From contig NZ_FZOF01000027.1 in NCBI RefSeq assembly GCF_900188405.1, forward strand, positions 1-64,000: DNA of 64,000 nucleotides. The letters are read 5' to 3'. This document shows, in pieces, positions 31,835-56,754 of this stretch. The DNA is from Actinacidiphila glaucinigra. GTDB lineage: Bacteria > Actinomycetota > Actinomycetes > Streptomycetales > Streptomycetaceae. How positions within the stretch are numbered: the first letter of the stretch is position 1; each line of letters opens with the position of its first letter. Made by a program: the position numbers and the translations under genes. The notes beneath the pieces are model-generated. The model ran no database searches. It was not told the origin of the DNA and saw only the letters and a program-made list of their open reading frames with translations.

Positions 31835-32426
31835 CTCGGTCCTCCAGCGCATCAGAAAGCCTCATAGTGGGTAAGTTGCCAAAAGTCGATCGGCGGCCGC
31901 CATGAAGAGGTTCAAACCTCTGATCGAATCAACGTGAAAGCCGCCTGCCCTGGCTTCGACTCGGCGCGCTACAGCCTAGATTAAGTGGACGAAACAGTCC
32001 AGTCCGTGTCCCTGGACCGGCATCCCGCCGGCGCATACCGCAACCCGTGGGCGAGGCTGCGCCCCCACTCGCATGCGGTGCCCCTCAACAGCCGCACTCC
32101 GCACCGTTCGGGGGAAGGTTCGCCCCTCCGCATCCTGCACGGGGCAACGCCGGACGGCCCCATCCATGGCGTACAGAAGCCGCCTTACGACTCACAGGCC
32201 ATGGCGGATACGCACACTGCGGTCACGTGCTTCTCGACGACGCCCCAGGGCTCGCAGGTCACGGATTCCACCTCAGCGGCGAGCCCCCTACAGGCAGACC
32301 TGCCGCCGACTGGGCCACCGCTCGGGTTCGCGCGCCGCCCCCAGTGGACGCGCGACCTGCTCTGCGACAGATAGGATTGTTACGTCTATCAGGGCATATC
32401 GCTCGACGATGGTCAGGAAGCGGCAG
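31835..32426. other. 590-base gap, promoter side of two divergent genes
   Basis: Contains the site at 31987-32000 and otherwise no gene I can support. A long frame reading into the SpoIIE protein from 32073 has no recognisable protein before 32427. Confidence 0.4.
31987..32000. promoter_or_regulatory. Putative TetR operator GGACGAAACAGTCC
   Basis: Exact GGAC-N6-GTCC site preceded by AT-rich tagattaagt. 153 bases upstream of GNAT paralogue 3 (minus). Confidence 0.5.
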
Positions 32427-40667: not shown

Positions 40668-40744
40668 AGCGCTGGTTCGCATCCGTGCCATTTCGTGCAC
40701 CGAGTGCACGCACCAACGCTCCCATCACAGCCAAGGAACCTGTC

Positions 40745-41923
40745 ATGTCCCAGTTCTCCGCTGCGCCCTTCGCGATCTCCCACGACGACACCCAGTGGGC
40801 CGCCCGTCACATGCCTCTGCTTGCGGCAACCATGCAGACCCACTCCAGCGCCTTCGCCGGCCGGCGGATCGGCATCTGCCTCCACATCGAACCCAAGACC
40901 GCCGTGCTCGTGTCCCACCTGGCCCAGGCAGGCGCTCATGTCACGCTCACCGGTTCCCCGGGCACGACTCAGGAAGCCACCGCCGCTGCCCTGCGCGACG
41001 CGGGCGTGCACGTCATCGGCCACCGCTCGGACAGCCTGGAGCAGCACCGCGACAACATCGCCGGTGTGCTGGACTCGGAGCCCGACCTGATCCTCGACAA
41101 TGGCGGCGACCTGATCGAAGGCGTGCTCGCACGGGGCGGTCTGCCTTCCCTCATGGGGGCCACCGAGGAGACCACCACCGGCGGACTGCGCATCCGCTCC
41201 TGGGACACCCAGCCGGGCTTTCCGGTGATCGTCATCAACGACAGCCGCCTCAAGCTGCTGGTCGAGAACGAGTACGGTGTCGGGCAGAGTGTCGTGCAAG
41301 GCTTCATGAACGCCACCAACCTCATGCTCCCCGGAGCGCGGGCGACCGTCGTCGGCTACGGGCCGTGCGGCAAGGGGGTGGCCGACACCCTCGCCAAACT
41401 CGGCGCCCGCGTCTCGGTGGCCGACGTCGATCCGTACCGCGCGCTCGAAGCCGTCATGGCAGGGCATGCAGTGGGAGCGCTGCGCGATCTCCTGCCCGAG
41501 ACCCAGCTGCTGTTCCTTGCCACCGGGCACCCTGGTGTCATCGGCGCAGCGGAGCTGGACGTTCTCGCGGACGGCGCGGTGATCGCCGGCGTCGGGCACA
41601 TGCCCTGGGAACTGGACGCCGAGGCCCTGTCCGGGCGTACGTCGACCGTCGAGCGCGCGGGAACCAGCGGCCAGGAACGCGCCGTGCACCGTCTGAAGGA
41701 CGGCAGAGAGGTCATCGTCCTGGCCGACACCAAGATGATCAACCTGACGGCCGCCAAGGGAAACCCCATCCAGGCCATGGACCTCGGACTCACTCTCCAG
41801 GCCAGGAGCCTGGCGGCTCTCACCTCCGCAGCGGAGAGTCGGCTCGTCCCGGGAGTACAGGCGGTGCCGGCCCCGATCGACCGCCAAGTGGCAACCGACC
41901 TGGTCGCCCTGCTGAGCGCCTGA
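40745..41923 (+). CDS. S-adenosylhomocysteine hydrolase-like protein, short form
   Basis: 392 residues from ATG 40745 (AAGGA seven bases upstream). SAHase motifs: ICLHIEPKTAVLVSHLAQAG, LDNGGDLIEGVL, ATEETTTGGLRIRSW, IVINDSRLKLLVENEYGVGQ, NAD motif TVVGYGPCGKGVADTLAKLG, LLFLATGHPGVIGAAELDVL, VIAGVGHMPWELD. Housekeeping actinobacterial AhcY is near 480 residues; this one lacks the insert and is divergent, so it may act on a related thioether or be a dedicated copy. The family releases adenosine and homocysteine after methyl transfer. It stands at the edge of the C1 cluster on the opposite strand. Confidence 0.8.
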   Translation: MSQFSAAPFAISHDDTQWAARHMPLLAATMQTHSSAFAGRRIGICLHIEPKTAVLVSHLAQAGAHVTLTGSPGTTQEATAAALRDAGVHVIGHRSDSLEQHRDNIAGVLDSEPDLILDNGGDLIEGVLARGGLPSLMGATEETTTGGLRIRSWDTQPGFPVIVINDSRLKLLVENEYGVGQSVVQGFMNATNLMLPGARATVVGYGPCGKGVADTLAKLGARVSVADVDPYRALEAVMAGHAVGALRDLLPETQLLFLATGHPGVIGAAELDVLADGAVIAGVGHMPWELDAEALSGRTSTVERAGTSGQERAVHRLKDGREVIVLADTKMINLTAAKGNPIQAMDLGLTLQARSLAALTSAAESRLVPGVQAVPAPIDRQVATDLVALLSA

Positions 41924-42435: not shown

Positions 42436-43425
42436 TCAGCACTCGTGATCGTGGCAGGCGCTGCTGTCGGCCGGCGGGAAGAACACCACGTGTGGCTCGA
42501 CATTGCCGTCAAGGCGAAGGCTGTGGTACATCGTGAGCGTGTGGTTCACCCCAAGGGTCTCCACACCGCCGAGCCGTCCGGACCACTTGTCGATGACCGG
42601 CTTCGCGGCCTCCGCGGCCGCCCCCTCGTACATGGTTTTGAAGTACTCGTAGATGTGTTCTGTTCCGACCGTGTCGCGCGCACGGGCGCGCTTGACCGGG
42701 GTGAGTTCCAGCGCGTGCTGCGCGGCGTCGCGGATGTCGTGCATGTACTCGCGCTGCATTTCGACGTCCTGGCGTGTGCCAAGGCGGGTGAGGTGACCAG
42801 TGATCATCGTGTCGAAGTCGAACGCGAGCGTGTGGTCATGGTGCGCCATGAACCCGGGGATGTGCTTGGACTGGGCGATGTTGGTGAACGGCACCCACCC
42901 CGGATAGATCACGTCAACCAGCATCAGGATCTTCTGCCGGGGCAGATAGACGAAGCTGTTGCCCGGGGCGTGGTTGTTTCCCTTGTAGTGCATTTCGAGG
43001 ACCTGGCCGCCCACCTCCATTCGGTAGGAGTCCTTGAAGGTCACATCCGGCAGTCGGCGCAGAGGATCACGGGTCTCGCGCAGCATCGTATGGGTTTCCT
43101 GCTGTGCGATCCGTGTGGCGTCGTCGGGGAACTGGTCGACCCTTCCGATGTGGTCGCCGTGGAAGTGCGTGTACACCACGTGGGTGATGGTCTTGCTCGT
43201 GACGTCGCGGATGGCACGGGTGACAAGGCCGCCGAGCGAGGGTGGTGCGTCGATGGCGATCACCTCGTCGTCGCACACCACGAACGCACACTGGTAGCCG
43301 CCGTCCGTGACCCAGTAAACGCCGTCGTCTACCTCCTGGACCAGGTACCCGCAAGGTGGCACCTTGGGGCCAACCGCGTTCTGCGGGACGGGTGGAACGG
43401 TGTTGTTGCGAGTTGACTGCGTCAT
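42436..43425 (-). CDS. Metallo-beta-lactamase-fold hydrolase
   Basis: 329 residues, ATG 43425. Zinc motif THFHGDHIGR (87-92 HFHGDH), upstream strand VYWVTDGGYQCAFVVCDDEV, then YKGNNHAPGNSFVYLPRQKI and later metal Asp in MLVDVIYPGW, and MITGHLTRLG. Hydrolase of unknown substrate; members of this branch cleave lactones, thioesters or phosphodiesters. Same strand as the M24-cupin pair but separated from it by 296 bases. Confidence 0.88.
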   Translation of the reverse strand: MTQSTRNNTVPPVPQNAVGPKVPPCGYLVQEVDDGVYWVTDGGYQCAFVVCDDEVIAIDAPPSLGGLVTRAIRDVTSKTITHVVYTHFHGDHIGRVDQFPDDATRIAQQETHTMLRETRDPLRRLPDVTFKDSYRMEVGGQVLEMHYKGNNHAPGNSFVYLPRQKILMLVDVIYPGWVPFTNIAQSKHIPGFMAHHDHTLAFDFDTMITGHLTRLGTRQDVEMQREYMHDIRDAAQHALELTPVKRARARDTVGTEHIYEYFKTMYEGAAAEAAKPVIDKWSGRLGGVETLGVNHTLTMYHSLRLDGNVEPHVVFFPPADSSACHDHEC

Positions 43426-43721: not shown

Positions 43722-45053
43722 TCAGCCGCGGGGACGGTTGCGATGCGACTGGGGTTCGCGGAGGGTGGGCAGTGGGCCGCCGACCGCGAAGTAGCGCTGT
43801 CCGGCGACCAGCAGGTCCTCGGCTGGGAACTTGGTGATCACCTCGCAACCGTCCTCGGTGACGACCAGTTCCTCCTCGATACGGGCCGCGCCAAGGCCGT
43901 CGGCTGACGGCCAGTAGGTCTCCAGCGCGAACACCATGCCCGCCTCGAGGACCTCGGGATGGTCCAGCGAGACCAGCCGGGAGAAGATCGGCTTCTCCCA
44001 GATCGACAGTCCGACCCCATGGCCGTACTGCAAGGCGAAGGCCGCCTCCTCGTCCGGGAAGCCGAACTCCTGCGCCGTCGGCCATACGGAGACGATGTCC
44101 GCCGTGGTGGCACCCGGCCGTACGAGGTCGATGGCCCGGTCCATGTAATCGCGGCACCGGGTGTAGGCGTCCCGCTGCGCCGGCGTGGCACTGCCGACCG
44201 CGAATGTTCGGTAGTAGCAGGTGCGGTAGCCCATGTGGCTATGCAGGATGTCGAAGAACGCAGGGTCACCCGGCCGGATGATGCGGTCCGAGTAGACGTG
44301 CGGGTGCGGCGAACACCGCTCGCCGGAGATGGCGTTGACACCCTCGACGAACTCGGACCCCATGTCGTAAAGCGTCTTGCTGACCAGGCCTACGCACTCG
44401 TTCTCGCGCACACCGGGCCGCAGGAAGGAGTACAGCGAGTCGTACGCGGCGTCCACCATGGCGGCCGCCTGGCTAAGCAGGGTGATCTCCGTGTCCGTCT
44501 TGATCCGGCGCGCCTCCAGGAAAACCTGCTGACCGTCGGTCACCGTCACACCCGCGTCCCGCAGCGCGGCCAGCACGGGCATCTCGATGACATCCACGCC
44601 GACCGGTTCGCCGGCCAGACCGTACAGGTCCAGTTCACGGCGTACCTTGCGGGCCACCTCCTCTGCGATGTTCGCGTCGGGGTTGAACGCGCCGCGCAGT
44701 GTGGAGATCCCGGCCCGCGCGCCTGACGGATTGCGCTCGTCGGACGGGTGGTCCAGCCACGGCGCATACAACTGGTGGTGCCGCGCCGCGGAGCCGAAGT
44801 CCCACACTATGGGTTCGCCGCCGCGCACCAGAAGGGCGAAGCGGATCAGCTTGTCGACCGCCCAGGTGCCGATGTGGGTGGCGGTCATGTAGCGGATGTT
44901 GGTGAAGTCGAAGGCGAGGACGGCACCCAGCTCGGATGCCTCCAGTTGCGCACGCAGCCGCTGCAGTCGGTCGCCGCGCAGCCGGTCGACATCGACTCGC
45001 TGCTCCCAGTCGACCGTGTTCAGGCCGAACGCGGAGGTCGCCGCGAGCGTCAT
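43722..45053 (-). CDS. M24-family (pita-bread fold) protein with altered metal site
   Basis: 443 residues; ATG overlaps the cupin stop (ATGA), so coupled. N-terminal creatinase-like domain (FDFTNIRYMTATHIGTWAVD, PIVWDFGS) resembles DMSP lyase DddP, and the C-terminal pita-bread domain carries Asp268, YGHGVGLSIWEKP (His), VFALETYW and ARIEEELVV (Glu pair). Where DddP and peptidases have a further Asp (usual ...D-x-T-R-T), this protein has Cys279 in YRTCYYRTF, and a second DddP Asp aligns with Leu270. It may therefore be metal-free like creatinase, or bind metal differently. Probably a hydrolase or lyase on a small substrate of the cluster, not a peptidase. Confidence 0.82.
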   Translation of the reverse strand: MTLAATSAFGLNTVDWEQRVDVDRLRGDRLQRLRAQLEASELGAVLAFDFTNIRYMTATHIGTWAVDKLIRFALLVRGGEPIVWDFGSAARHHQLYAPWLDHPSDERNPSGARAGISTLRGAFNPDANIAEEVARKVRRELDLYGLAGEPVGVDVIEMPVLAALRDAGVTVTDGQQVFLEARRIKTDTEITLLSQAAAMVDAAYDSLYSFLRPGVRENECVGLVSKTLYDMGSEFVEGVNAISGERCSPHPHVYSDRIIRPGDPAFFDILHSHMGYRTCYYRTFAVGSATPAQRDAYTRCRDYMDRAIDLVRPGATTADIVSVWPTAQEFGFPDEEAAFALQYGHGVGLSIWEKPIFSRLVSLDHPEVLEAGMVFALETYWPSADGLGAARIEEELVVTEDGCEVITKFPAEDLLVAGQRYFAVGGPLPTLREPQSHRNRPRG

Positions 45054-45919
45054 CGCGCCTGTCCGTCCTCGGGCAGGGCGCGCCAGTCGTCCGGGAAGAA
45101 GAAGGCGTCCGATGTCGGCGGGACAGGTGACTGGACCTCGATCCAGCGGGCGGGCTCGTCGCGCTCGTTGACGAACCCGTGGGTGCCGTCCGTGCTGACC
45201 CAGACGAGATCGCCGGTCTCGGTGACCTCCTCGTTGCCGTCGATCCAGCCACGCATCCCACCACCGACGAAGTAGTAAATCTCCTCGAAGGGGTGGTAGT
45301 GCACCTTCGCAGCCTTTCCGGGGCCGGAGCGCGGGGCGATACTGGCGATGAAGGTGGTGTGGTGCTGGGCGCCCAGCAACTGGTCCACCATCATCCGAAT
45401 GCTGATGTTCTTGATGTTGGGCCCGTGGTATCCCGGCATTGCCAGATCACCGAAGGGTGCCACGTCCGACTCGCTGAAGTGGCCGACAAAGCGGTGCCGG
45501 GGGTCGGTTTCCGACGGCCGGCCCATGTACTCGCCGGAATGCGGCTGGGTCGAGATGCTGCTGCGCGCACCGTCGAAGCTGGGCGGCTTCGGAGCCCGGA
45601 CCGAGAACCAGCTCAACCCCTGGTCGCCAGCCGACAGCGAGTGCGCCAGCCCGACGGGAGCCACACCGTAGTCACCGACGCCGAGGTCGTACTCCAGCCC
45701 CGCGAGGGCCGCACGGCCGTTGCCCGCCGTCACGAACCATGATTCCTCGAACGGACAGCGGTTCCAGCCGAGCGTCGCGCCAGGGGCGAGTTCGTACAGG
45801 GCGATCTCCATGTGATGCGACCCATGGATCTCGCCGACCATCAGCGCCTGGCGCAGCCCCGGCACGTCCTTGACGTCGATCCACTCGCGTTCGGAGGCAC
45901 GTGAAATGTGGTAGGCCAT
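45050..45919 (-). CDS. Bicupin protein
   Basis: 289 residues from ATG 45919 (AAGGGG five bases upstream). Two cupin domains. The first (NRCPFEESWFVTAGNG) lacks the H-x-H pair. The second has a complete metal set: KVHYHPFEEIYYFVGG and TDGTHGFVNE. Likely a dioxygenase or isomerase working through the C-terminal cupin; bicupins with one active half include ring-cleaving dioxygenases. Coupled to the M24-fold gene and 85 bases downstream of the activator gene, with an AT-rich repeated motif in that gap. Confidence 0.83.
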   Translation of the reverse strand: MAYHISRASEREWIDVKDVPGLRQALMVGEIHGSHHMEIALYELAPGATLGWNRCPFEESWFVTAGNGRAALAGLEYDLGVGDYGVAPVGLAHSLSAGDQGLSWFSVRAPKPPSFDGARSSISTQPHSGEYMGRPSETDPRHRFVGHFSESDVAPFGDLAMPGYHGPNIKNISIRMMVDQLLGAQHHTTFIASIAPRSGPGKAAKVHYHPFEEIYYFVGGGMRGWIDGNEEVTETGDLVWVSTDGTHGFVNERDEPARWIEVQSPVPPTSDAFFFPDDWRALPEDGQAR

Positions 45920-45975
45920 GAGAACCCCTTCACCTTGTGGCAAGTTGTGTCGGGATCGAGTGTGGCCGGGAGGGC

Positions 45976-45993
45976 ATTAATCCCTTCATAATC
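45976..45993. promoter_or_regulatory. AT-rich direct repeat shared with the metF/SDR promoter
   Basis: ATTAATCCCTTCATAATC: TAATC recurs 11 bases apart. A close variant (ATTAATCATTCATTAGAT) sits at 53416-53433. Direct repeats at 11-base period are typical of SARP/OmpR-like winged-helix sites. Located about 57 bases before the bicupin start. Confidence 0.4.
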
Positions 45994-46004: not shown

Positions 46005-48998
46005 TCAGCGGCGCAGTTGCGCGACAAGTCGGCGTACCTCGGCAGACGGCGCGACGCCAAACTCACGCATCCTGGCGGTGTACCGCTGGTACACCGCCAG
46101 GACAGAGTCGTCACCGCCACTGGCATGGGCCAGGGATATCGCCAATTGCCAGGCCTGCTCACGGTACGGGTTGACCTTGAGCGCGTCGTTCACGAGTTGC
46201 CGGGCCTCGCGATACCGACTGAGCTGGAACGCCAGTTTGGCTGCTTCGATTCGGCCACTGGTGACGCGTTCGCTGATCTCCGAACGGCGTTGTTCGACCC
46301 AGTCGCTCGACAGGGGCGCGAGGTACGGTCCTCGGTCGGCACGGGCCAGCGCCTCGGTAATGCTGCGCAGGCGGATCTCTCCGTCCTGGTGGTCGGCTTG
46401 CACCAGCGAGTCGAGTACGACCTGCGCCGTGCCGCAGACCAGGTCGGGGCGTCCGAAGTAGAGCCGGTCGCCGTCCTGCTGTGGCACGAGGTCTTCGGGG
46501 AGCACCTCGCGAAGTCGGTGCAGCGACACGCGCAAGTAGTTGCGGCCGGCGGCTTCGTTTCGGTTGTCGAAAAGGCTGCTCAGGAGTTCTTGCCGGGAGA
46601 CCTCCTGTCCGGCGCCGAGTAGATAGCTGAGTAGCTCCATGCTCTTGCTCAGCCGTAGCGTCGACTGTTGTCCGTCGACGGTCAGGATTGGTTCACCGAA
46701 CTCCTCCAGCACCAGACGTGGCGCCCTCGCGGCGACGCGCAATGGGGCCTGGCTGGAGAGCGTGGCGGTGAGCTCGTGCCAGCGCGACATCCGGGTCGGG
46801 GACGCATCCGCTTCCCTGACTGCCACGGCGGGGACGTCGGTCAGCGCGCTGAGCAGCAGATGCTGGGACCCCTGTGCTGTGGCCTCGCTCAAAGCGAGTT
46901 CGGCAGCCGCATCAGACGAATCCTCCCGGCCGACTCGCCAGTACGCCTCCGCCAGATAGGCCGCCGCCGTGGCCAGTTCAAGCCGCCGGTCGCCGCGCCG
47001 CATTCCGTCGACGCAGGCCTCCAGCTCCGCGCACGCCTCGACGTTGTGATTCCGCAAGAGCAAGGAATATCCGCGCCACAGCTGGCAAAGCTCCCGGCTG
47101 AAAGCGTATTCGGCCGCTCCGCCGGCTTCCGCCTCGGCAAGCGCGCGATCGGCCGCCTCCGTGTCCTGATGCAGGCGCAGGTACAGCTTCGCCTCGCTCA
47201 GATGACCGAAGAAGCGGTACAGCCGGGACCCGGTCTCTGCGATCAGTCGGCAGCCGCGTTCCAACGCGGCCCGCGCATCGTTGCCCCGACCGAGGTCGAT
47301 CATGAGATCGACGGCGTCGAACGCGTGCAACCAGGGCGGCTGCCACGCCTCCCGACGTACCTCGTACATCTGCATGGCCTCCTCCAGGCGACCCGTCGCG
47401 CGCAGCCCGGCGATGACCCATGGCGCGCCCAGCACGGTCCGCCGCGGATCCGGGCCGGTGGGCCGGTCGAGCCCGTTCAGCCGACCTCGGAGGTATCCGA
47501 TCCGCATCAGCATCCCGTCGACCGTGGCTGACGGTGTGGGTGAATAGCCGGGGAAGGGAGGTGATGTGCCGTCCGCCAGCGCCAGAAGGTTGTCGGCCGC
47601 CTCTCTGGCGCAGCCTGTAGGCAAGCGTTCAGCCAACGTGTGTGCTTCTTCGAGCCGGCCGGAGTGCCACAGACACCACGTCGCCAGCAACAATGCTTCC
47701 TCGAAATGAGGTGAATCGGGTCCTGGCAACCAGCCGTAGCCGTGCCGCTCGAGTAGCTCGATTCCGCGCTGGCACTGTTCGAGGGCGAACGACACGCGCA
47801 GGACAGCGATGCCGACCCCGGGCGTCGGTGTCCTACTGGTGGCATCCAGTGAGTCCAGCCACCGGGCCGCCGAGCTGAAGTTCATCCGGGCGACCACATC
47901 AGGGAGGGCGACCGCGGCGTGCCGCCACGCGGCCTCTGCGTCACCCAGGCGCAGGAGCGAGTCGACGGCTTCCTCCCACTCGCCTTGCTGTACCAGCAGT
48001 TCCGCGTGCAGCTGGTGCAGTCGGCGCACCGTCTCCGGATCTTCCGTCCTGATCAGTTCCTCGGCAAGGAGTTCCCTGAACTGGGGGTGTGGGGTAAGCC
48101 GGGTGCCGTCTTTCGACCAGGTCACGGGTAGTCGCTTGGACTGCAGTCGGGCCATCAGCCGGGCCGCGTCGGTCTGGCCGAGTGCCACTGCGTCGGCGAC
48201 CGAGATTTCCGCCAGCGCACTGGTGCGCAGCAGGAACGCGCGCTCGGTGGCGGAGAGGGTACGGAGGGTGTTGGCCGAGAGATATTCACGCAGGGCGTTG
48301 GGCTTGCGACCGGCCACCTCGACTGTTCGCCACCCCTCGAACAGCACTCCGGCGACCCAACCGCTGGTGTTGTCGACGACGCCCTGAACATCGACATCGG
48401 ACCGGCCGATCAGCCGCAGGGCCGCCGCCGTCTCGCCGGCGTCGAACGCGAGATCCTCCTCGCCCAACTCGCCCACACGGGAGATGTCACTCATCGATCC
48501 GATGTCCAGCGGAATGCCGGCGCGGGAGATCAACACGAGGTTCACTGCGGCAGGTAGGTACCGGGCCAATGCCGACAAGACCACGATCGATTCCTCGTCG
48601 TCCGTGATCCGTTCGACGTTGTCACACACCAGTATCAGTCGACTGCCCTGCAGGCTCTCTGCAAGCAGCCCAGCGGCCTCGCCGACCTGGATGCCGTTGT
48701 GCAAGGCGTCGGTTGCCGCCCGGGGGGCGTCATGGACATGCGGCTCGACCGCCGCTTCGAGATACACCAGCAACCGACCGGGAGCCTGTTCGGTGCCGTC
48801 GAGCGAAAGCCAGGCGACAGGACGATCGAGATTGCGCAGGGCCAGAGCGACGGCTGTGGTCTTTCCCCCGCCGGCGGACGCGCACACCGTCACCACGGGG
48901 TGGTGGTCGATGAGGAACCGTATGCGCTGCGACAGTCGGTCTCGCCGCACGATGTTGTCGCCGGGTTCAGGCGTCGCTAGCTTCCGCCGGATCATCAT
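46005..48998 (-). CDS. Large transcriptional activator: N-terminal NTPase, C-terminal winged helix plus BTAD (SARP-like)
   Basis: 997 residues, ATG 48998. Walker A ASAGGGKTTAV (40-50), Walker B-like LILVCDNVERI (about 125), then a MalT-like helical and repeat region (about 250-760). The C-terminal 236 residues carry an OmpR-type winged helix (SKSMELLSYLLGAGQEVSRQ, ELLSSLFDNRNEAAGRNYLR, VSLHRLREVLP) and a BTAD domain (YREARQLVNDALKVNPYREQ, AVYQRYTARMREFGVAPSAE). Domain order is the reverse of AfsR, where SARP parts come first. Likely the pathway-specific activator of the 42-57 kb cluster; it sits in the middle of it. Confidence 0.88.
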   Translation of the reverse strand: MMIRRKLATPEPGDNIVRRDRLSQRIRFLIDHHPVVTVCASAGGGKTTAVALALRNLDRPVAWLSLDGTEQAPGRLLVYLEAAVEPHVHDAPRAATDALHNGIQVGEAAGLLAESLQGSRLILVCDNVERITDDEESIVVLSALARYLPAAVNLVLISRAGIPLDIGSMSDISRVGELGEEDLAFDAGETAAALRLIGRSDVDVQGVVDNTSGWVAGVLFEGWRTVEVAGRKPNALREYLSANTLRTLSATERAFLLRTSALAEISVADAVALGQTDAARLMARLQSKRLPVTWSKDGTRLTPHPQFRELLAEELIRTEDPETVRRLHQLHAELLVQQGEWEEAVDSLLRLGDAEAAWRHAAVALPDVVARMNFSSAARWLDSLDATSRTPTPGVGIAVLRVSFALEQCQRGIELLERHGYGWLPGPDSPHFEEALLLATWCLWHSGRLEEAHTLAERLPTGCAREAADNLLALADGTSPPFPGYSPTPSATVDGMLMRIGYLRGRLNGLDRPTGPDPRRTVLGAPWVIAGLRATGRLEEAMQMYEVRREAWQPPWLHAFDAVDLMIDLGRGNDARAALERGCRLIAETGSRLYRFFGHLSEAKLYLRLHQDTEAADRALAEAEAGGAAEYAFSRELCQLWRGYSLLLRNHNVEACAELEACVDGMRRGDRRLELATAAAYLAEAYWRVGREDSSDAAAELALSEATAQGSQHLLLSALTDVPAVAVREADASPTRMSRWHELTATLSSQAPLRVAARAPRLVLEEFGEPILTVDGQQSTLRLSKSMELLSYLLGAGQEVSRQELLSSLFDNRNEAAGRNYLRVSLHRLREVLPEDLVPQQDGDRLYFGRPDLVCGTAQVVLDSLVQADHQDGEIRLRSITEALARADRGPYLAPLSSDWVEQRRSEISERVTSGRIEAAKLAFQLSRYREARQLVNDALKVNPYREQAWQLAISLAHASGGDDSVLAVYQRYTARMREFGVAPSAEVRRLVAQLRR

Positions 48999-49427: not shown

Positions 49428-49931
49428 CTACTTGAAGGCCTCGGTGTTGCGGAAGAATGCCTTGCCATGAGGGTAGGACACCAGTTCGCACTGCAGTCCC
49501 CATGGTGACAGGAAGTAGACCCAGCGTTGGCCCTCGTGCGGACCCTTGCTGTCCGTCGGCTCCCCGAGTACGCGGAGGCCGCGTCGGCGCAGGTCGGCCA
49601 CCGCGGTGTCCATGTCGTCCACGTAGAGGGCGAGATGATGGCCACCGACGTCGCTGTTGCGAGGAGGATCCAGGCGCTGGTCGGGCGCCTGGTACTCGAA
49701 GACCTCCAGGACCGCTTGGCCGCCGATCCTGAAGAAATAGATGCGTGGCGACACCGCCCTGTCGTGCACGTTGAGGTGCTCACTCATCCAGTGGCCCTCG
49801 TCGTCGCGCAGCGGTCCGAGCCTGTACAGGTACTCGAATCCAAGTACGTCTTCGAAGAATTCACGCGCCTGGTCCAAGTCGGGAACGGTGATCCCGAAAT
49901 GGTCGACACGAGTGAGACCGGGAATGGGCAT
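49428..49931 (-). CDS. VOC superfamily protein (glyoxalase/dioxygenase fold)
   Basis: 167 residues. Two beta-alpha-beta-beta-beta modules: LTRVDHFGITVPDLDQAREF (first metal His), YFFRIGGQAVLEVFEYQAP (Glu), DVGGHHLALYVDDMDTAVAD (second His) and SPWGLQCELVSYPHG (Glu). The H/E/H/E set is complete. The fold includes glyoxalases, ring-cleaving extradiol dioxygenases and epimerases. Last gene of the metF-demethylase-purU run. Confidence 0.85.
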   Translation of the reverse strand: MPIPGLTRVDHFGITVPDLDQAREFFEDVLGFEYLYRLGPLRDDEGHWMSEHLNVHDRAVSPRIYFFRIGGQAVLEVFEYQAPDQRLDPPRNSDVGGHHLALYVDDMDTAVADLRRRGLRVLGEPTDSKGPHEGQRWVYFLSPWGLQCELVSYPHGKAFFRNTEAFK

Positions 49932-49974
49932 CGAACCTCCGTTGAGAGTCCTGTCGATTTACGCAATGTGATGA

Positions 49975-50832
49975 TCAGGGGAAGACCACGGTTCGGCTTC
50001 CGTCGAGCAGTACGCGGTTCTCGGTGTGCCAGCGAACCGCTCGGGACAATGCCAGGCATTCGACGTCCCGGCCGAAGGTGGTCACCTCGGCGGCGGTCAT
50101 GGAATGGTCTACGCGTGCCACTTCTTGCTCGATGATGGGCCCCTCGTCGAGATCCGATGTCACGTAGTGCGCGGTGGCACCCACGAACTTCACACCTCTG
50201 GCATGGGCCTGGTAGTACGGTCGGGCGCCCTTGAAGCTGGGGAGCATGGAGTGGTGGATGTTGATAGCGCGCCCCTCCAACCTCTTGCAGAGCGCCGGGG
50301 AGAGGATCTGCATGTAGCGGGCCAGTACGACGAGGTCGACGTCAAGATCCTCGACCAGGTCCATGAGTTTCTTCTCTGCGGCCGGCTTGGTCTGCGGCAT
50401 GACCGGCATGTGGTGGTAGGCGACGCCGTAGGCCTCGGCCAGGTGGGTCAAGTCCGTGTGGTTCGACACCACGGCGGCGACCTCGACGTTCAGCCCGCCG
50501 TTGAAGGCGCGGAACAACAGGTCGTTGAGGCAGTGCCCGAATCGGCTGACCATGATCATGATGCGTTGCGGTCTGGTGGCATCGAGCAGTCGCCATTCCA
50601 TGGGGAACTGCTCCGGCACTCTCCGGAAGCCCGCGCGCAGCGTGTCGATCGTGGTCAGCGGGTCTGAGGATTCGAACTCCACCCGCATGAAGAATTTCCC
50701 GGCGCCGCGTTCGCTGAACTGCTGGCTCTCCACGATGGTGCAACCGTTCCCGAGGAGGAAGGCCGAGACCGCGTGTACTATCCCCGGCCGGTCAGGGCAG
50801 GTCAGGGTGAGAACAAAGCGCGATGCAGTCAT
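49975..50832 (-). CDS. purU: Formyltetrahydrofolate deformylase
   Basis: 285 residues, ATG 50832. N-terminal ACT domain (FVLTLTCPDRPGIVHAVSAF) followed by a formyl-THF hydrolase domain: IMVSRFGHCLNDLLFRAFNG, VAAVVSNHTDLTHLAEAYGV, and catalytic INIHHSMLPSFKGARPY with GATAHYVTSDLDEGPIIEQ (Asn, His, Asp). Converts 10-formyl-THF to THF and formate. In a demethylation pathway this regenerates THF. 59 bases downstream of the demethylase gene on the same strand. Confidence 0.95.
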   Translation of the reverse strand: MTASRFVLTLTCPDRPGIVHAVSAFLLGNGCTIVESQQFSERGAGKFFMRVEFESSDPLTTIDTLRAGFRRVPEQFPMEWRLLDATRPQRIMIMVSRFGHCLNDLLFRAFNGGLNVEVAAVVSNHTDLTHLAEAYGVAYHHMPVMPQTKPAAEKKLMDLVEDLDVDLVVLARYMQILSPALCKRLEGRAINIHHSMLPSFKGARPYYQAHARGVKFVGATAHYVTSDLDEGPIIEQEVARVDHSMTAAEVTTFGRDVECLALSRAVRWHTENRVLLDGSRTVVFP

Positions 50833-50891
50833 GCTGAATTACGTCCTCCACTGTGAGTCGGAGTCTCCGTGGACGTTCTGGGGTGGCTCCG

Positions 50892-52247
50892 TCACACCAG
50901 GGGGCGGGTACGGAGTGTGGCGCGGATGTGGCGCTGGACGTGGCGTTCGACGGTGGGCTTGGCCGATCCGCCGTTTTCCTCGCCGATGACGATCGTCACC
51001 TCGCGGCCGTCGATCGCCTCACTGTCGTCCACCATGGCCAGTGAGGACCAACCGCCCACGTTGACGGTGTAGCCGGCGTTCGCGGAGATGCCCACCAGCC
51101 GTCCGTCGACGAGCACCTTGTCGTAGGACCCGGTGGCGTAATTGGAGACCGGCATCTCCAGGTACTTCGTGTGCGGCCCGCTGCCGAACAGGCTGTCGGT
51201 GATGAGCTCCGCGGTATCCCGGTCGTTCCAGCGCAACCACACCTTCCTGCGGTGCGGCTGGTCCGCCATCAGCTCCAGGGCCTCCCGCCCGATGAAGTCA
51301 TGGTCGAACCTGATGACGCGGCCGTAGCCGAGGTCCCACGGCGTGACGTAGTAGTCCTCGATGTTGTCGGACACGAAACTGCCGCCGATGGACTTGTTCG
51401 CCTCGAAGCCCTCCGCGGACAGCCACTGCCGGAAGGGCTTCATCGTCTCACCGGTGTAGATGGCGGGCACCGGCGCAGGGAGCCAACCGGACTCGATCGC
51501 GGTGGCCGGGTAGGCCCGTGCGCCGCCCTGACGCAGCCCGAACTCTTCCCCGGCCGCCAGCAGGGCCTCCCGGACTGTCTCGCTGTGTTCCTGTGGTCCG
51601 ACCAGTTCGAGACCGGTGAACTCGTCTCCCGGCACCCCGACCATGGTGTGGTTGAGCGCACGGATCGGGACACCCGCGATCTTGAACTCGCCCATGGCGA
51701 AGAATTTGATCCGCGGGAGAGGCGCGCCCGCCGCCCTTTCGACGATCTTGTGAGTGGCAGGGCCGTTGAGCTGGAACCGGAAGGTGAGTCGCCTGCCGTC
51801 GTTGGCGATGGAACGCTCGTCACGGGTCACGGTGACCCGGTAATCTCCGGTTTCCGCGTGGAAGGCGGCCCAGTTGGGTGCGACCGGCCGGCCCACCAGG
51901 CTGAACTCGTCGTCCTCGAAGGCGAACAGAATGGCATCACCGACGAAATAGCCGTCGTAATTGCATGCGATGAACTGCTTTGCTTTGTTCCTGCCGAAAT
52001 TCTTGAATCCGTTCACACCGAGATCGGACATCAGCCGCAACGCGTCCGGACCCTTGAAGTAGATGTCCGTCATGTGGTTGGACTGATCGAACAGCACTGC
52101 GGTCTCCTTCCAGGCCCGCTGTTCGTCCCGCCAGTTGGTGTACTCCGCACGCATGGGGTACACGTACGGGCCCTGGGGTGCGTTGCGCAGCATATGCGCA
52201 ACGTTGCCGGCCTTGTGGATCTTCTCTTCGAGATTCATGAAACTCAC
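50892..52247 (-). CDS. LigM/DesA-type tetrahydrofolate-dependent O-demethylase (GcvT fold)
   Basis: 451 residues. Very close in pattern to vanillate/3-O-methylgallate demethylase LigM of Sphingobium: NLEEKIHKAGNVAHMLRN, YVYPMRAEYTNWRDEQRAWK, AVLFDQSNHMTDIYFKG, NWAAFHAETGDYRVTV, IESGWLPAPVPAIYTGE, IGGSFVSDNIEDYYVTPWDL, RFDHDFIGREALELM, and C-terminal GEENGGSAKPTVERHVQ. Moves a methyl from an aryl methyl ether (or similar) to THF. Start GTG 52247; ATG at 52238 is possible. Operon with metF (before) and purU and VOC (after). The methoxylated substrate is unknown: no vanillate-type ring-fission gene set is nearby. Confidence 0.85.
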   Translation of the reverse strand: MSFMNLEEKIHKAGNVAHMLRNAPQGPYVYPMRAEYTNWRDEQRAWKETAVLFDQSNHMTDIYFKGPDALRLMSDLGVNGFKNFGRNKAKQFIACNYDGYFVGDAILFAFEDDEFSLVGRPVAPNWAAFHAETGDYRVTVTRDERSIANDGRRLTFRFQLNGPATHKIVERAAGAPLPRIKFFAMGEFKIAGVPIRALNHTMVGVPGDEFTGLELVGPQEHSETVREALLAAGEEFGLRQGGARAYPATAIESGWLPAPVPAIYTGETMKPFRQWLSAEGFEANKSIGGSFVSDNIEDYYVTPWDLGYGRVIRFDHDFIGREALELMADQPHRRKVWLRWNDRDTAELITDSLFGSGPHTKYLEMPVSNYATGSYDKVLVDGRLVGISANAGYTVNVGGWSSLAMVDDSEAIDGREVTIVIGEENGGSAKPTVERHVQRHIRATLRTRPLV

Positions 52248-52302
52248 GCTCGGCTTTCTGTCTACTGGCGGTGGCTGGGGTCAGGACTCTGGGTCGCTGG
52301 AA

Positions 52303-53154
52303 TCATCCGGTTTCTTCCACACCACTGGCGCGGGACAGCCAGTCGACTGTGGTGTCGACCTGGTTGAAGGAGAACAGATGCAGGCCTTCGATCGAGAGGT
52401 CGGCGAAGGAGATCTTCTTGTGGATGGCGATGAGCAGGTCCATGGGCTCATAGGCCCGTCCCAGCAGCAAATTGCCAACCATTCCGTGCTGTTTGGACAG
52501 AAACCTTACGGACCGTCCGACTCCGATCTTGACCGAAAGTTCGATCAGCTTCCGGACCTGCAGGGGAGCCGCGACGCCGATGCGAAGCGGCAGGGTGACG
52601 CCCCGGTCGCGAGCCGATTGCAACCAGCCGGCCATGGCTGAAGCGTCGAAGCAGAGTTGGCTGACCATGTAGTCGGCGTACTGCTGTTTGCGCACCAGGG
52701 CGTCGAACAGTACGTCGTCTGAGATCTTTGGGTGACCCTCCGGGTAGCAACCGATCCCTATCTTGGAGAGTCCGTGGTCGAACTCGCCCAGTTCCTGGAG
52801 GATTTCCGCGGCCTCGCTGAACCTGCCGACGGGTTCCTCTCCGTCGCCGCCGATGACGAACAGTTCGTCGACACCGAGATCATTGATTCTCCGTACAAAA
52901 TTTCGCAGATCTTGCCGTTCCTCGACCATGCGGGCCGCCAGGTGCGGCACGACCCGGTGGCCCGATCGGCGTGCCGCCGCGACGTGGTTGAGCGTCCGCA
53001 AAAGTCCAAATTTTGGCGAGCAGGTCACGGTCACCGTCGTGTCGGCCGGCACTACGGCCGCCTTCTCCTCCGCGCCCTTGAGGGGAATGATCTCGACACT
53101 CGCGTTGCGGACTATGTCGTCGACCGTAATCGTCCGGTCAGCGGATTGCGTCAT
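52303..53154 (-). CDS. metF: 5,10-methylenetetrahydrofolate reductase
   Basis: 283 residues, ATG 53154. MetF TIM-barrel motifs: VTCSPKFGLLRTLNHVAAAR, HRVVPHLAARMVEERQDLRN, ELFVIGGDGEEPVGRFSEAA, KIGIGCYPEGHPKI, ALVRKQQYADYMVSQLCFD, LPLRIGVAAPLQ, GLHLFSFNQVDTTVDWLSRA. In this setting it would run in reverse, oxidising methyl-THF to methylene-THF. First gene of the minus operon; its promoter faces the SDR promoter in 53155-53541. Confidence 0.9.
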   Translation of the reverse strand: MTQSADRTITVDDIVRNASVEIIPLKGAEEKAAVVPADTTVTVTCSPKFGLLRTLNHVAAARRSGHRVVPHLAARMVEERQDLRNFVRRINDLGVDELFVIGGDGEEPVGRFSEAAEILQELGEFDHGLSKIGIGCYPEGHPKISDDVLFDALVRKQQYADYMVSQLCFDASAMAGWLQSARDRGVTLPLRIGVAAPLQVRKLIELSVKIGVGRSVRFLSKQHGMVGNLLLGRAYEPMDLLIAIHKKISFADLSIEGLHLFSFNQVDTTVDWLSRASGVEETG

Positions 53155-53541
53155 TGAAGTTTTACACCTTCTCCGAGCTGGAGTGAATCAGACAATACGA
53201 CCTGTCCGGTGTGCCGTCCGAGCGGAAGCCGGCGGCAAGAATGCGAGGGCTATCACCCAGGTCCTGAGGCGCAGTCGGCGGCGACATCCAACTGGGAGTA
53301 GAAAACCGCCGGCCAAGCCTCCGGAGATCGAGGCCAGTTCGGCAAACGATGATGGCGCCGAGCCGATATCTCTGCGTGAAGCCCAGAAACTGCCGAGGAC
53401 CTTACAGTAACGCCCATTAATCATTCATTAGATGAGCTCCCCTGCAATTATCCGGCCATTACTCACTCTTGCCGCCGGGACGTCCGCGGCACATGCTTGC
53501 CGACAGCGATATTCACGCCGGGAATTTTGGAGGAATCAGCA
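53155..53541. other. 387-base divergent promoter region
   Basis: Between metF (minus) and the SDR gene (plus). The part 53407-53475 is clearly AT-rich and includes the repeated motif at 53416. Likely controls both halves of the C1 cluster. Confidence 0.55.
53416..53433. promoter_or_regulatory. AT-rich motif shared with the bicupin promoter
   Basis: ATTAATCATTCATTAGAT; TTAATC and TTAGAT recur 11 bases apart. Same core (ATTAATC...TTCATxA) as at 45976-45993. Candidate site for the cluster activator. Confidence 0.4.
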
Positions 53542-54348
53542 ATGACGTTGGATATTCGGCTTGACGGACGGACAGCGCTCATCACCGGAGGAGGCAGCGG
53601 ACTCGGCCTCGCGACCGCTGAGGCGCTGTACGCACAGGGCGCCGCCGTGGCCATCCTGGGCCGCACCAAGGCCAAACTGGAGGCCGCCGAAAAGCAGATC
53701 GCCGCAGCCGGCGACGGCCGCGTCCTGACATTGGTGGCAGACGTCAACGACGACGACGCGGTGGCGGATGCGCTGCGCCAGGTACACGAGTGGCAAGGCC
53801 GGCTCGACATCCTCGTCAACTGCGCGGCGCCCCTGCTGGCCGTAAGCCCGCTGGCGGAGGCCGACGAGACGGTCATGAGCGACGCCCTGAACGCCAAGGC
53901 CGTCGGCTACCTGCGGGTTGCGCGCGCCGCGCTGCCCCTCATCGAAAAGGGAGGCACAGGGCGCATCATCAACGTCGCGGGCATGGCGGCACATGTGCTG
54001 GTCCCGAACATCGGCGTGGCCGCCGCGGTGAACGCCGCCGTGGTCGCCCTGACCAGCTATCTGGCCGCCGAAGCGGCCCCGCAGGGCGTGCTGGTCAACG
54101 GCATCTCGCCTGGCATGACGCTGACACAGGTCTGGCTGGACCGCCACGCGGCCACCGCCGAAGCGAAGAACATCACCCCCGAGCAGGTACGCGACGGCAT
54201 GGTGGCAAACCTCGGAATCCGTCTCGGCCGCTGGGCACGCCCGGAGGAGATCGCGGCCGCGGCACTGTTCCTCGCCTCCGACCTCGCCTCGTACGTGACC
54301 GGTCAGGTCCTCCAGGTCGACGGCGGGCTCGGCAAGTCGGTCATCTGA
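53542..54348 (+). CDS. SDR-fold protein lacking the catalytic Ser-Tyr-Lys
   Basis: 268 residues from ATG 53542 (GGAGG upstream). Cofactor motif ALITGGGSGLGLATAEAL (15-22 TGGGSGLG) and NCAAPL intact, C-terminal ASDLASYVTGQVLQVDGGLG typical. In the active site, N-V-S-S is replaced by NVAGMAA (Gly147 at the Ser position), and the Y-x-x-x-K segment reads NIGVAAAVNAAVVALT, with Ala160 for Tyr and Asn164 for Lys. It is thus probably not a classical dehydrogenase; it could be a pseudoenzyme partner or use another chemistry. First gene of the plus operon. Confidence 0.88.
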   Translation: MTLDIRLDGRTALITGGGSGLGLATAEALYAQGAAVAILGRTKAKLEAAEKQIAAAGDGRVLTLVADVNDDDAVADALRQVHEWQGRLDILVNCAAPLLAVSPLAEADETVMSDALNAKAVGYLRVARAALPLIEKGGTGRIINVAGMAAHVLVPNIGVAAAVNAAVVALTSYLAAEAAPQGVLVNGISPGMTLTQVWLDRHAATAEAKNITPEQVRDGMVANLGIRLGRWARPEEIAAAALFLASDLASYVTGQVLQVDGGLGKSVI

Positions 54349-54369
54349 CCGTCAGTGAGGAAGATTCAC

Positions 54370-55233
54370 ATGACCCACGTGTCCGTCGCCGGCCTTGGCA
54401 ACATGGGCAAAAGCATGGTCCACCGCCTACTCGCGACGGGAATCGGGGTGACGGTCTGGAATCGCTCGCCCGCAGCCGTCGACGAGCTCGTCGCGCTGGG
54501 TGCCAAGCGCGCCGGATCCGTCGCCGAACTGTTTGCCGCCGGGCCGGTGCTGTCAGTGCTGGCCGACGACGCCGCAGTCACCACGGTCTTCGACGAAGCG
54601 GTCCTCGCCGAGGTCGGGCCAGAGGCCGTCCACGTCGGCATGTCAACGATCTCGGTGGCCGCCGGGCGCGCCCTGGCGGAGAGGCACCAGACCGCCGGCG
54701 TGGGGTACCTGGCGGTCCCCGTACTGGGGCGCCCGGCCGTTGCCGAGGCGGGGCAGCTCAACCTGCTCGCCGCCGGTGACGGGGCGTTGATCGACTCCCT
54801 GGAACCGGTGTTCTCGGTGCTCGGGCGACGAACCTGGTGGGTCGGCGAGCACCCATGGCAAGCCAACGTCGTCAAGATCACCATGAACCTGCTGATCATC
54901 CACGCGCTGGAGGCGATGGCGGAGGGCTTCACGCTGGCAGAACGACACGGCGTCGACGCACGCGAGCTGCACAATCTGATCACGGGGACCTTGATGCCGG
55001 GACCCGTGTACCAGGGCTACGGCAAAGCGATGGCGGACCGCGAGTACCTGCCGGCCGGATTCCGCACCGCCCTGGGGAACAAGGATCTCGGTCTGGCCCA
55101 GGCGGCCGCCGAATCGGTCGGACTGGAGCTGCCCGCCATGTCCGCCCTGCGCCAGACCTTCCTGACCGCGATCGACCTGGGCAAGGCCGATCACGACTGG
55201 GCGTCGATTGCAGAAGTGCTGCGAAGAGCCTGA
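54370..55233 (+). CDS. Beta-hydroxyacid dehydrogenase / imine-reductase-like NAD(P) oxidoreductase
   Basis: 287 residues from ATG 54370 (AGGAAG six bases upstream). Rossmann SVAGLGNMGKSMVHRLLATG, VTVWNRSP, HVGMSTISVAAG, substrate motif VGYLAVPVLGRPAVAEAGQL, and catalytic Lys in NVVKITMNLLIIHALEAMAE, followed by a helical dimer domain. Family members oxidise 3-hydroxyacids or tartronate semialdehyde-like compounds. 21 bases after the SDR stop. Confidence 0.88.
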   Translation: MTHVSVAGLGNMGKSMVHRLLATGIGVTVWNRSPAAVDELVALGAKRAGSVAELFAAGPVLSVLADDAAVTTVFDEAVLAEVGPEAVHVGMSTISVAAGRALAERHQTAGVGYLAVPVLGRPAVAEAGQLNLLAAGDGALIDSLEPVFSVLGRRTWWVGEHPWQANVVKITMNLLIIHALEAMAEGFTLAERHGVDARELHNLITGTLMPGPVYQGYGKAMADREYLPAGFRTALGNKDLGLAQAAAESVGLELPAMSALRQTFLTAIDLGKADHDWASIAEVLRRA

Positions 55234-55278
55234 ACGATGAACACATCCATCACAGTCCAACCCGAGGAGGGTGTTGTC

Positions 55279-55863
55279 ATGACGCTTGTGCCCTTGGTGG
55301 CGAGGGACCAGATCGACGCAGTCGACCTGCCACTGATCCAAGCTGGGGAGCAGTCGTTCGGCAAGCTGCTGAACACTTGGCTCGCCATCGCCAACAGTCC
55401 GGGTATGTTCGCCACCTACCTGCCGTTCGTCCGTGCAGTCACGGGCCCGGGTGAGCTCGACGGGCGCATCCAAGAGCTCACCGCGGTCTATGTGTCGTTG
55501 CTGAACCACTGCCGGTACACCACCAGCCACCGCTGCTACTCGGCGCTGGCCAAGGGCGTGAGCGAGGCAGACCTGGAGCGACTGGCCGCCGGCGACTTCT
55601 CCTCGTTCAGCAGCAGAGAGCAGCTGGCTCTGCGCTTCACCCGTGCCCTCACGGTCGACCATGCGGTGACCAGCCGCGACGACAGCGTGACCGGCATCGA
55701 CCCCGAGGTGCTGGCGCAGGTGCGGGACAGCTTCAAGCCGCGGGAACTCGTCGAGTTCGTCATGTCTGTCGGACTGTGGAACGCCCTCACCCGCTTCCAC
55801 CGGGTGATGGACCTCGACCTCGACCTCGGTGAGCCGCCGTCCGCGGTGGACGCCGCCGTCTGA
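55279..55863 (+). CDS. Carboxymuconolactone decarboxylase/AhpD-family protein
   Basis: 194 residues from ATG 55279, chosen for GAGGAGGGT upstream (ATG 55237 also possible). CMD motif ELTAVYVSLLNHCRYTTSHR: the usual C-x-x-C is C-R-Y-T, so the second redox Cys is missing while the first Cys and His remain. Then REQLALRFTRALTVDHAVTS and ELVEFVMSVGLWNALTRFHR. Without the pair it is unlikely to be a peroxidase; a decarboxylase-type or structural role in the pathway is more likely. Confidence 0.85.
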   Translation: MTLVPLVARDQIDAVDLPLIQAGEQSFGKLLNTWLAIANSPGMFATYLPFVRAVTGPGELDGRIQELTAVYVSLLNHCRYTTSHRCYSALAKGVSEADLERLAAGDFSSFSSREQLALRFTRALTVDHAVTSRDDSVTGIDPEVLAQVRDSFKPRELVEFVMSVGLWNALTRFHRVMDLDLDLGEPPSAVDAAV

Positions 55864-55878
55864 GCGCGGATGAGGACC

Positions 55879-56754
55879 ATGACTGCCGAGATCCTCGATG
55901 GCAAGGCCGTCGCAGCCGAGATCAAATCCAGGCTGACGACCCGTGTTGCGGCGCTGAAGGAAAAGGGCGTCACACCCGGGCTGGGCACGATCCTGGTGGG
56001 GGACGACACCGGCAGCCGCAAATACGTGGCAGGCAAGCACCGCGACTGCGCCGAGGTCGGCATCGCCTCGATCCGACGCGAACTGCCCGTGACGGCGACG
56101 CAGGAGGAGATCGAGGCGCTCGTCCGCGAGCTGAACGACGACCCGGCCTGCACCGGTTACATCGTGCAGTTGCCGCTGCCCACGGGCATCGACGAGAACC
56201 GGATCCTGGAACTGATGAATCCGGAGAAGGACGCGGACGGCCTGCACCCGATGAACCTCGGCCGTCTGGTCCTCAACGAGCCGGCACCGCTGCCCTGCAC
56301 TCCAAACGGTGTGCTCACCCTGCTGCGCCACTACGGCGTGGAGATCAAGGGCGCCGAGGTCGTGGTGGTCGGCCGGGGCGTGACAATCGGGCGCCTGATA
56401 CCGCTGCTGCTGACTCGGCGGCGGGAGAACGCCACGGTCACCCAGTGCCACACCAGCACTCGCGACCTCTCTGCCCACCTGAGGCAGGCGGACATCATCG
56501 TCGCCGCAGCGGGCTCCGCGCACCTGATCCGGCCCGAAGACGTGAAGCCCGGTGCCGCCGTCCTCGACGTCGGCGTCTCACGCAGCGCCAAGGGCACAAT
56601 CATCGGTGACGTCCACCCGGACGTTGCACAGGTCGCCGGCTGGATCTCACCGAACCCGGGTGGTGTGGGCCCAATGACCCGTGCCCAACTGCTCGTCAAC
56701 GTGGTCGAAGCAGCAGAACGCGACGTCGGCTATGGGCAACACAGCAGTGCGTAG
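55879..56754 (+). CDS. folD: Bifunctional methylene-THF dehydrogenase/methenyl-THF cyclohydrolase
   Basis: 291 residues from ATG 55879 (in-frame ATG 55870 nine bases earlier). FolD motifs: [20 protein letters not shown] with Tyr49 and Lys53, [80 protein letters not shown] (Rossmann), [28 protein letters not shown]. It converts methylene-THF to formyl-THF, linking MetF to PurU. Last gene of the plus operon. Confidence 0.95.

Follow-up and report, generated by a model that had tools for sequence, protein, structure and literature searches.

A putative tetrahydrofolate-dependent demethylation cluster in Actinacidiphila glaucinigra and the lower pathway it may have in common with a halophenol-type cluster

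Which methylated compound is handled by a gene cluster that combines a LigM/DesA-family demethylase with enzymes of folate recycling, and what becomes of that compound once it is demethylated? The cluster in question lies in the first 64,000 nucleotides (hereafter the window) of contig C77 (NZ_FZOF01000027.1, positions 1-64000) of the 9.8-Mb genome of Actinacidiphila glaucinigra. On balance we favour the reading that the cluster serves the breakdown of a methoxylated compound, most likely a phenolic one; demethylation would proceed via tetrahydrofolate (THF) and the product would enter a lower pathway common to this cluster and a sister cluster on another contig. The genes named in the first-pass annotation of this DNA are open frames where it had placed them and match the expected families:

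42436-43425, minus strand: MBL-fold (metallo-beta-lactamase) hydrolase of 329 amino acids (Pfam Lactamase_B)
43722-45053, minus strand: M24-family protein, atypical (PF00557, 131 bits)
45050-45943, minus strand: bicupin (two Cupin_2 stretches)
46005-48998, minus strand: SARP-like regulator with a MalT-like N-terminus and a BTAD C-terminus (PF03704, 40.5 bits; MalT model, 96 bits)
49428-49931, minus strand: VOC-family protein (PF13669)
49975-50832, minus strand: PurU, formyl-THF deformylase (TIGR00655, 330 bits, above the cut-off of 286)
50892-52247, minus strand: putative LigM/DesA-family THF-dependent demethylase of 451 amino acids, in a subclade of its own (NCBIfam, PDB matches, residues, tree)
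52303-53154, minus strand: MetF-like methyl-THF oxidoreductase (PF02219; best PDB chain 7xg9)
53542-54348, plus strand: short-chain dehydrogenase/reductase (SDR) without the usual catalytic triad (PF13561; alignment of 7)
54355-55233, plus strand: HIBADH-like beta-hydroxyacid dehydrogenase (PF03446/PF14833)
55237-55863, plus strand: CMD-family protein (PF02627, 29.6 bits)
55870-56754, plus strand: FolD, a paralogue of the genome's other FolD (NF010789 (PRK14193), 487 bits, above the cut-off of 401)

With starts as called, gaps of 3-6 bases separate the SDR, HIBADH-like, CMD and FolD genes of the plus strand, and the M24 and bicupin genes overlap by 4 bases. The SDR start was set at the ATG at 53542, which is preceded by GAGGAA; the mechanical open reading frame begins at 53497.

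The demethylase is a GcvT-fold protein, and its family could be settled from NCBIfam scores and PDB matches. It scored 566.5 bits with DesA and 513.5 with LigM, as against 62 with GcvT, 35 with sarcosine oxidase and 34 with a trimethylamine N-oxide (TMAO)-like model, and its best PDB matches are the LigM structures 5tl4 and 5x1i. These scores rule out an aminomethyltransferase (AMT) or sarcosine-enzyme identity and bear out the earlier assignment to LigM/DesA. The protein is 48% identical to LigM and has all of Y29, Y31, Q57, H60, R122, E215, Y247 and W256, which we take to be the pocket, folate and catalytic tyrosine positions of LigM, with Asn rather than His at position 59; Q57, H60, E215 and Y247 are invariant in all 21 aligned sequences. 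One might take the enzyme to demethylate vanillate and 3-O-methylgallate, as LigM does, or syringate, as DesA does, with genes elsewhere in the genome providing for cleavage of the resulting protocatechuate or gallate. The identity to LigM, the retained pocket residues, R122 included, and the DesA and LigM scores would fit this, as would the five matches to the intradiol dioxygenase model PF00775 in the genome, two of them adjacent on contig C30 and one beside a FAD monooxygenase gene. We nevertheless regard it as unlikely. The protein misses both the LigM equivalog cut-off (NF047885, 580 bits) and that of DesA (NF047633, 800 bits), which true relatives pass: the copies of Rhodococcus opacus DSM 44186 (868 bits) and of Rhizobium (759 bits) exceed the former, and a further copy (genome G251, locus L093) passes for DesA with 826 bits while reaching the LigM cut-off barely, with 580.9. 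In a tree of 44 rows, which did not include authentic DesA or Dmt and whose root is unsure because the GcvT branch is very long, the window protein groups with those of three Streptomyces, two copies from M. chlorophenolicum and one from Nocardioides sp. PD653-B2 (7 rows, support 100/98), and this group nests in a mainly actinobacterial clade of 26 rows (100/95) with LigM outside. Moreover, the cluster has no gene recognised as one for ring cleavage, and all five PF00775 matches lie on contigs other than C77 and that of the sister cluster, C80. For the intradiol dioxygenase on C63, NCBIfam models gave nothing over cut-off.

Judged by scores and tree position, then, the demethylase is a member of the LigM/DesA superfamily in a separate subclade. 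Cut-offs and tree together rule out that it is the vanillate or syringate orthologue, and since it is not orthologous to LigM or DesA, a different substrate is plausible. To this extent the earlier suggestion of a new methoxylated substrate stands, although THF-dependent demethylases of actinobacteria have already been published. That such enzymes are best known from sphingomonads is likewise true but too narrow: the available portions of PMC9404685 and PMC9296663 put actinobacterial examples in print, the latter describing LigM/DesA-like enzymes as known in Actinobacteria. Strong relatives are patchily distributed, occurring at E below 1e-60 in 8 of 61 genomes (4 of 35 of the genus, the present one included) and in 16 of the 394 genomes of the class.

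The methyl group itself very probably ends as formate after passage through THF, if enzyme activities and their direction are read from the sequences. The demethylase would transfer an O-methyl group to THF, MetF would turn methyl-THF into methylene-THF, FolD would carry this on to formyl-THF, and PurU would split the latter into formate and THF; because PurU returns THF, demethylation would involve no net use of THF and would need no formyl-THF synthetase. PurU and FolD score above their cut-offs, whereas the MetF-like protein misses that of canonical MetF (TIGR00676, 53 of 294 bits); its closest PDB chain, 7xg9, is a 5,10-methylene-THF reductase (112 bits) that we take to be the SYK-6 enzyme. 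In SYK-6, a homologue of methylene-THF reductase (MTHFR) is reported to oxidise methyl-THF jointly with LigM, gene sets of this kind occurring across many bacteria (PMC12585457). Formyl-THF synthetase (PF01268) has 0 matches in the genome, the same model matching 4 of 14 control genomes, 3 of them over cut-off, so that a loop closable without this enzyme, as had been proposed, is upheld. The genome's other FolD, on contig C44, is 80% identical to that of the cluster, and a second PurU elsewhere is 61% identical.

The loop is, however, not the novelty that it had been taken for. Among 28 loci with LigM homologues, which are relatives retrieved with the window demethylase rather than a random sample and whose stretches are of unequal length, some ending at contig ends, so that gene absences are lower bounds, MetF and PurU each adjoin the homologue in 21; 19 have the two together, 11 have FolD as well, and FolP is nearby in 7. 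(The 28 were taken from 32, without L122, which has no demethylase, L088, which coincides with L037, and L043 and L047, which repeat the pattern of L042.) On R. opacus plasmids the demethylase module stands beside folate-synthesis genes, in DSM 44186 also beside FdhD- and FdhF-type genes. By these gene neighbourhoods the THF loop is real, but it is a recurring module and not new: recycling by MetF, FolD and PurU is known for chloromethane (PMC3621897, as far as the available text goes) and adjoins many actinobacterial LigM homologues.

How far the cluster departs from described systems differs from case to case. The LigM/DesA system of Sphingobium SYK-6 agrees with the window in the fold and residues of its one-component THF demethylase and in a MetF-like partner; the window demethylase differs in its separate clade below both equivalog cut-offs, and the window cluster has PurU and FolD in place of LigH, which we take to be the formyl-THF ligase of SYK-6. 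The plasmids of R. opacus 1CP (pR1CP1) and DSM 44186 resemble the window in a demethylase-MetF-PurU set with a FolD-type gene and also hold the folate-synthesis genes, and pR1CP1 has in addition an HpaB-type monooxygenase, a BTAD regulator, a cupin, an SDR, an M24 protein and E1/E2/Lpd; unlike in the window, the 1CP demethylase, 56% identical to the window protein, lies in a region broken by transposases, and the DSM 44186 copy is over the LigM cut-off and comes with a protocatechuate-dioxygenase-type set. The dmt gene of dicamba degraders presumably also has a metF/purU neighbourhood. By description, the basis of our comparison, the dicamba demethylases Dmt, Dmt50 and Dmt06 are THF-dependent aryl O-demethylases like the proposed window enzyme, and for Dmt06 a protein of Actinomadura parvosata with 100% identity is reported (PMC9404685, in the part available). 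In MB2.64, ligH is found together with metF, according to the accessible part of PMC9296663. The chloromethane (cmu) system of Methylobacterium CM4 also takes the THF-bound methyl group to formate with MetF2, FolD and PurU (PMC3621897, available text), but there the methyl group enters via the corrinoid proteins CmuA/CmuB and not via a GcvT-fold demethylase; CmuA and CmuB are not among the genes recognised in the window cluster, no search aimed at them having been made.

A synteny comparison, a check put forward in the first-pass annotation, recovered an 11-gene cluster in Streptomyces MH60, plumbidurans and spinosisporus, where SDR, MetF, demethylase, PurU, VOC, SARP, bicupin, MBL, HIBADH, CMD and M24 are kept at 74-91% identity, and recovered it in part in M. 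chlorophenolicum. By this conservation of all genes but FolD the set is not a chance assembly. FolD was not seen in the ~21-kb stretches of the three Streptomyces, and the fully clustered loop is therefore particular to this genome. The VOC protein is 75-89% identical in relatives, and the SARP-like regulator 76-77% in the three Streptomyces and 62% in M. chlorophenolicum. In two of the three Streptomyces (L033 and L034), M24 and CMD flank genes for an E1 with fused alpha and beta parts and for an E2. One M. chlorophenolicum locus (L035) keeps SDR, demethylase, SARP, MBL, VOC, E1 and E2 without MetF and PurU, and another (L040, 18 kb) has three LigM-family copies with MetF, PurU, a FolD-like gene, FolC, FolP, MBL and a FAD aromatic hydroxylase. 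This organism converts pentachlorophenol to 1,2,4-benzenetriol (PMC5129356, available part).

The E1 gene leads to the second cluster, of halophenol type, which lies in the same genome outside the window (C80:8307-32982; L117 and L118). The E1 of C80 is the orthologue (90%) of that in the LigM clusters of the relatives and adjoins genes for an HpaB-type monooxygenase, SARP, M24, SDR and CMD. Identities to the window proteins are 60% for SARP, 78% for M24, 55% for SDR, 50% for CMD and 35% for the HIBADH-like protein; the stretch further holds a flavin reductase, an aldehyde dehydrogenase, GntR, E2, LpdA and, read by eye, pntAB-like genes. (Gene groups across loci were reported where at least 3 loci had them in common at 45% identity or more.) Related clusters occur on plasmids of Streptomyces NBC_01340, there with a bicupin (75%) and a VOC protein (65%), and of R. 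opacus 1CP. The NBC_01340 monooxygenase, to which that of C80 is 87% identical, scores 683 bits with the chlorophenol monooxygenase 6jhm, 669 with 2,4,6-trichlorophenol 4-monooxygenase and 641 with 3hwc. C80 and its NBC_01340 counterpart thus combine the common core with an entry gene of the kind found in TftD/TcpA/HadA-type chlorophenol monooxygenase clusters; the window has a demethylase at the entry position. Both entry types, demethylase and HpaB-type monooxygenase, are present on one plasmid in R. opacus 1CP; a table for pR1CP1 in the accessible part of PMC13101518 likewise names a vanillate/3-O-methylgallate O-demethylase and a TftD-like monooxygenase. Because of the related core genes and of the two entry types on the 1CP plasmid, we regard the two clusters as counterparts, that of the window for methoxy substrates and the other of halophenol type. 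The downstream genes, which the earlier remark set apart from vanillate and syringate pathways, are not a random collection, several being the core common to both clusters.

Under this reading the demethylated ring would pass to a lower pathway formed by the M24, SDR, HIBADH-like, CMD, bicupin and VOC proteins and then to a thiamine- and lipoate-dependent, pyruvate-dehydrogenase-like E1/E2/Lpd complex encoded on the other contig, a pathway that would also be fed by the sister cluster through its chlorophenol 4-monooxygenase-type entry enzyme. A lower pathway common to both clusters seems likely to us, and the substrate is slightly more probably phenolic than not. The window also has, at 25088-26581 on the minus strand, a gene resembling that of dihydrolipoamide dehydrogenase; it falls into one group with LpdA of C80 and R. 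opacus 1CP at the 45% identity threshold, and its product may be a partner of E1/E2.

The predicted lower-pathway proteins depart from their families in several respects. Metal ligands of M24 proteins are Asp, Asp, His, Glu and Glu, and the second metal Asp is replaced by Cys (GYRTC) in all nine members aligned; a peptidase was judged unlikely since this Asp is missing. The Ser-Tyr-Lys triad of classical SDRs, read by eye, is absent from all seven aligned sequences, and the SDR had rightly been called defective-looking. The HIBADH-like protein keeps its Gly-rich and Lys motifs, and the bicupin has metal-type His/His/Glu/His residues only in its C-terminal half. An AlphaFold model of the bicupin (mean predicted local distance difference test, pLDDT, 82.8) had quercetin 2,4-dioxygenase as its top match, followed by oxalate decarboxylase, DUF861 and ureidoglycine aminohydrolase; assigning a function from the fold was dropped, as the model fits bicupins generally and is not diagnostic. 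PDB sequence searches with the MBL, M24 and bicupin proteins gave superfamily-level matches only.

One could also assume a non-aromatic substrate, for instance a cyclitol that is methylated or a compound with an N- or S-methyl group. M24 would then be a hydrolase or lyase resembling creatinase or DddP, and E1/E2 would cleave an alicyclic diketone or acyloin. The best NCBIfam model for M24 is indeed the dimethylsulfoniopropionate (DMSP) lyase DddP, though with 110 bits against a cut-off of 600, and some E1/E2/SDR modules have sugar-type or shikimate-dehydrogenase-like genes as neighbours. We consider this improbable, given that the demethylase resembles GcvT, sarcosine and TMAO-type enzymes weakly and that the entry enzyme of the sister cluster is a phenol-type monooxygenase.

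The MBL-fold protein, whose HxHxDH motif and later His/Asp/His are invariant in six of six orthologues, brings in another substrate. By analogy with BxdA it might open a methoxy-benzoxazolinone (MBOA), the demethylase then acting on the methoxy-aminophenol. The metal motif is intact, and among the compared loci MBL is confined to demethylase clusters (L032-L035, L040), the halophenol-type stretches C80, L083 and L080 having yielded none. BxdA, a protein of ~34 kDa from the N-acyl homoserine lactonase family, is encoded by the first of 15 clustered genes that MBOA induces, others of which code for an aldehyde dehydrogenase, a VOC protein and an NAD(P)-dependent oxidoreductase; a BxdA lactonase would be expected to show ~60% or more similarity to BxdA of formers of 2-amino-7-methoxyphenoxazin-3-one (AMPO) (PMC11297187, available part). 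However, the likeness to BxdA is one of description, the accessible text of PMC11297187 names no demethylase, and carriers such as M. chlorophenolicum hardly point to a maize-root compound. We therefore hold a benzoxazinoid-type route to be improbable as well.

As for regulation, the cluster had been placed under a SARP-type activator, and this is supported by the SARP-like (BTAD) gene and by a candidate operator in the divergent promoter. The BTAD domain is over cut-off, and the winged helix, with 20.6 bits, is under its cut-off of 26.2; the MalT-like part is N-terminal, with the winged-helix-like stretch and BTAD at the C-terminus, which is not the textbook SARP order. SARP operators are direct repeats with a period of ~11 bp, and the divergent promoters of the window and of L032-L035 have RTTA-N7-RTTA direct repeats in common. 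The candidate copies in the window are:

45978-45992, minus strand: RTTA-N7-RTTA, candidate operator between the SARP and bicupin genes
53416-53430, plus strand: RTTA-N7-RTTA, candidate operator, copy 1 in the divergent promoter
53447-53461, plus strand: RTTA-N7-RTTA, candidate operator, copy 2 in the divergent promoter

Shuffled versions of the 64-kb window average 0.16 copies, and none of 100 reached three; within ~21 kb, the copies of L032-L035 are confined to the same divergent promoter. Since the motif was derived from those promoters, these counts are not independent. Independent checks came from C80 and NBC_01340, each with one copy ~200 bp upstream of the called monooxygenase start (found in 1 of 200 and 9 of 100 shuffles, respectively). 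The motif is present in 7 of the 8 SARP-carrying clusters examined and absent from L040 and L048, which have demethylase genes and no SARP gene seen. A scan of the divergent region for promoter and terminator consensus sequences gave nothing. From motif and gene content, SARP-like proteins probably activate both clusters via the candidate repeats.

Several results weigh against a methoxyphenol cluster with a lower pathway in common with C80. The HIBADH-like protein of C80 is distant, and no bicupin was found in the C80 stretch read, the genome's other bicupin (44%) sitting apart on contig C55; these two points lower our overall confidence. The third Streptomyces (L032) has no E1/E2 within 21 kb, nor does the window contain E1/E2, the genome's E1 being on the other contig. 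The fused E1 was found at E <= 1e-150 in 28 of 394 genomes of the class, and in the stretches around 17 of these, several with GntR, VOC, M24, HIBADH-like or aldehyde dehydrogenase genes, there was no match to the demethylase or to chlorophenol monooxygenase; the E1 module is therefore wider than phenol catabolism, and some such modules lie on plasmids beside sugar- or shikimate-type genes. R. opacus 1CP (L080) has no RTTA-N7-RTTA despite its SARP gene (50-52%), and the window promoter lies 262-293 bp upstream of MetF without a sigma-70-like match.

If the two routes do meet, their junction would be a hydroquinone or hydroxyquinol, hydroxyquinol being possible rather than likely. Going further, one may speculate, with rather low expectation, about a new aerobic lower pathway in which methoxyphenols and halophenols converge on hydroxyquinol/hydroxyquinone and are handled, with no classical dioxygenase, by the ligand-lacking M24 protein, the triad-less SDR, the hydroxyacid dehydrogenase and the pyruvate-dehydrogenase-like complex, one SARP-like regulator type and one operator motif serving both entries. 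The anaerobic splitting of hydroxybenzoquinone in Azoarcus anaerobius follows a similar logic. What is new here is the apparent connection of two kinds of entry gene, for methoxy- and for halophenol-type substrates, to a single lower pathway under one regulator type. It could explain how methoxylated phenols are processed by some pollutant-degrading actinobacteria, including M. chlorophenolicum and R. opacus 1CP.

Some further observations concern the lower-pathway genes in other genomes and other genes of the window. In L182-L198, from actinomycete genomes many of which are of 1.5-5 Mb, fused E1 and E2 form a common module, with GntR, VOC, M24, HIBADH-like and FolD-like genes in varied combinations. 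Two Paenarthrobacter plasmid loci (L081 and L082) have M24 (72-74% to that of the window), HIBADH-like and RidA genes, E1/E2 or LpdA in one or the other, and flavin reductase genes nearby (SulR in L082); judging from this gene content, the lower pathway may serve pollutant breakdown in Paenarthrobacter too. Alone near the MBL gene (40685-41923, plus strand) is an S-adenosylhomocysteine-hydrolase-like protein with 283 bits to TIGR00936 (cut-off 498) and 317 to NF004005 (cut-off 275), which may be other than the housekeeping enzyme. Two TetR-like regulators (26729-27400, minus strand, and 30527-31477, plus strand) are much alike in their C-terminal halves, as are the two GNAT-like proteins encoded at 21993-22730 and 31487-31852 to one another, which suggests local duplication. 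Just beyond the window end, at C77:63654-79640 (L114:3654-19640), an open frame of 5328 amino acids may encode a giant protein of assembly-line type or be an antisense artefact of high GC content.

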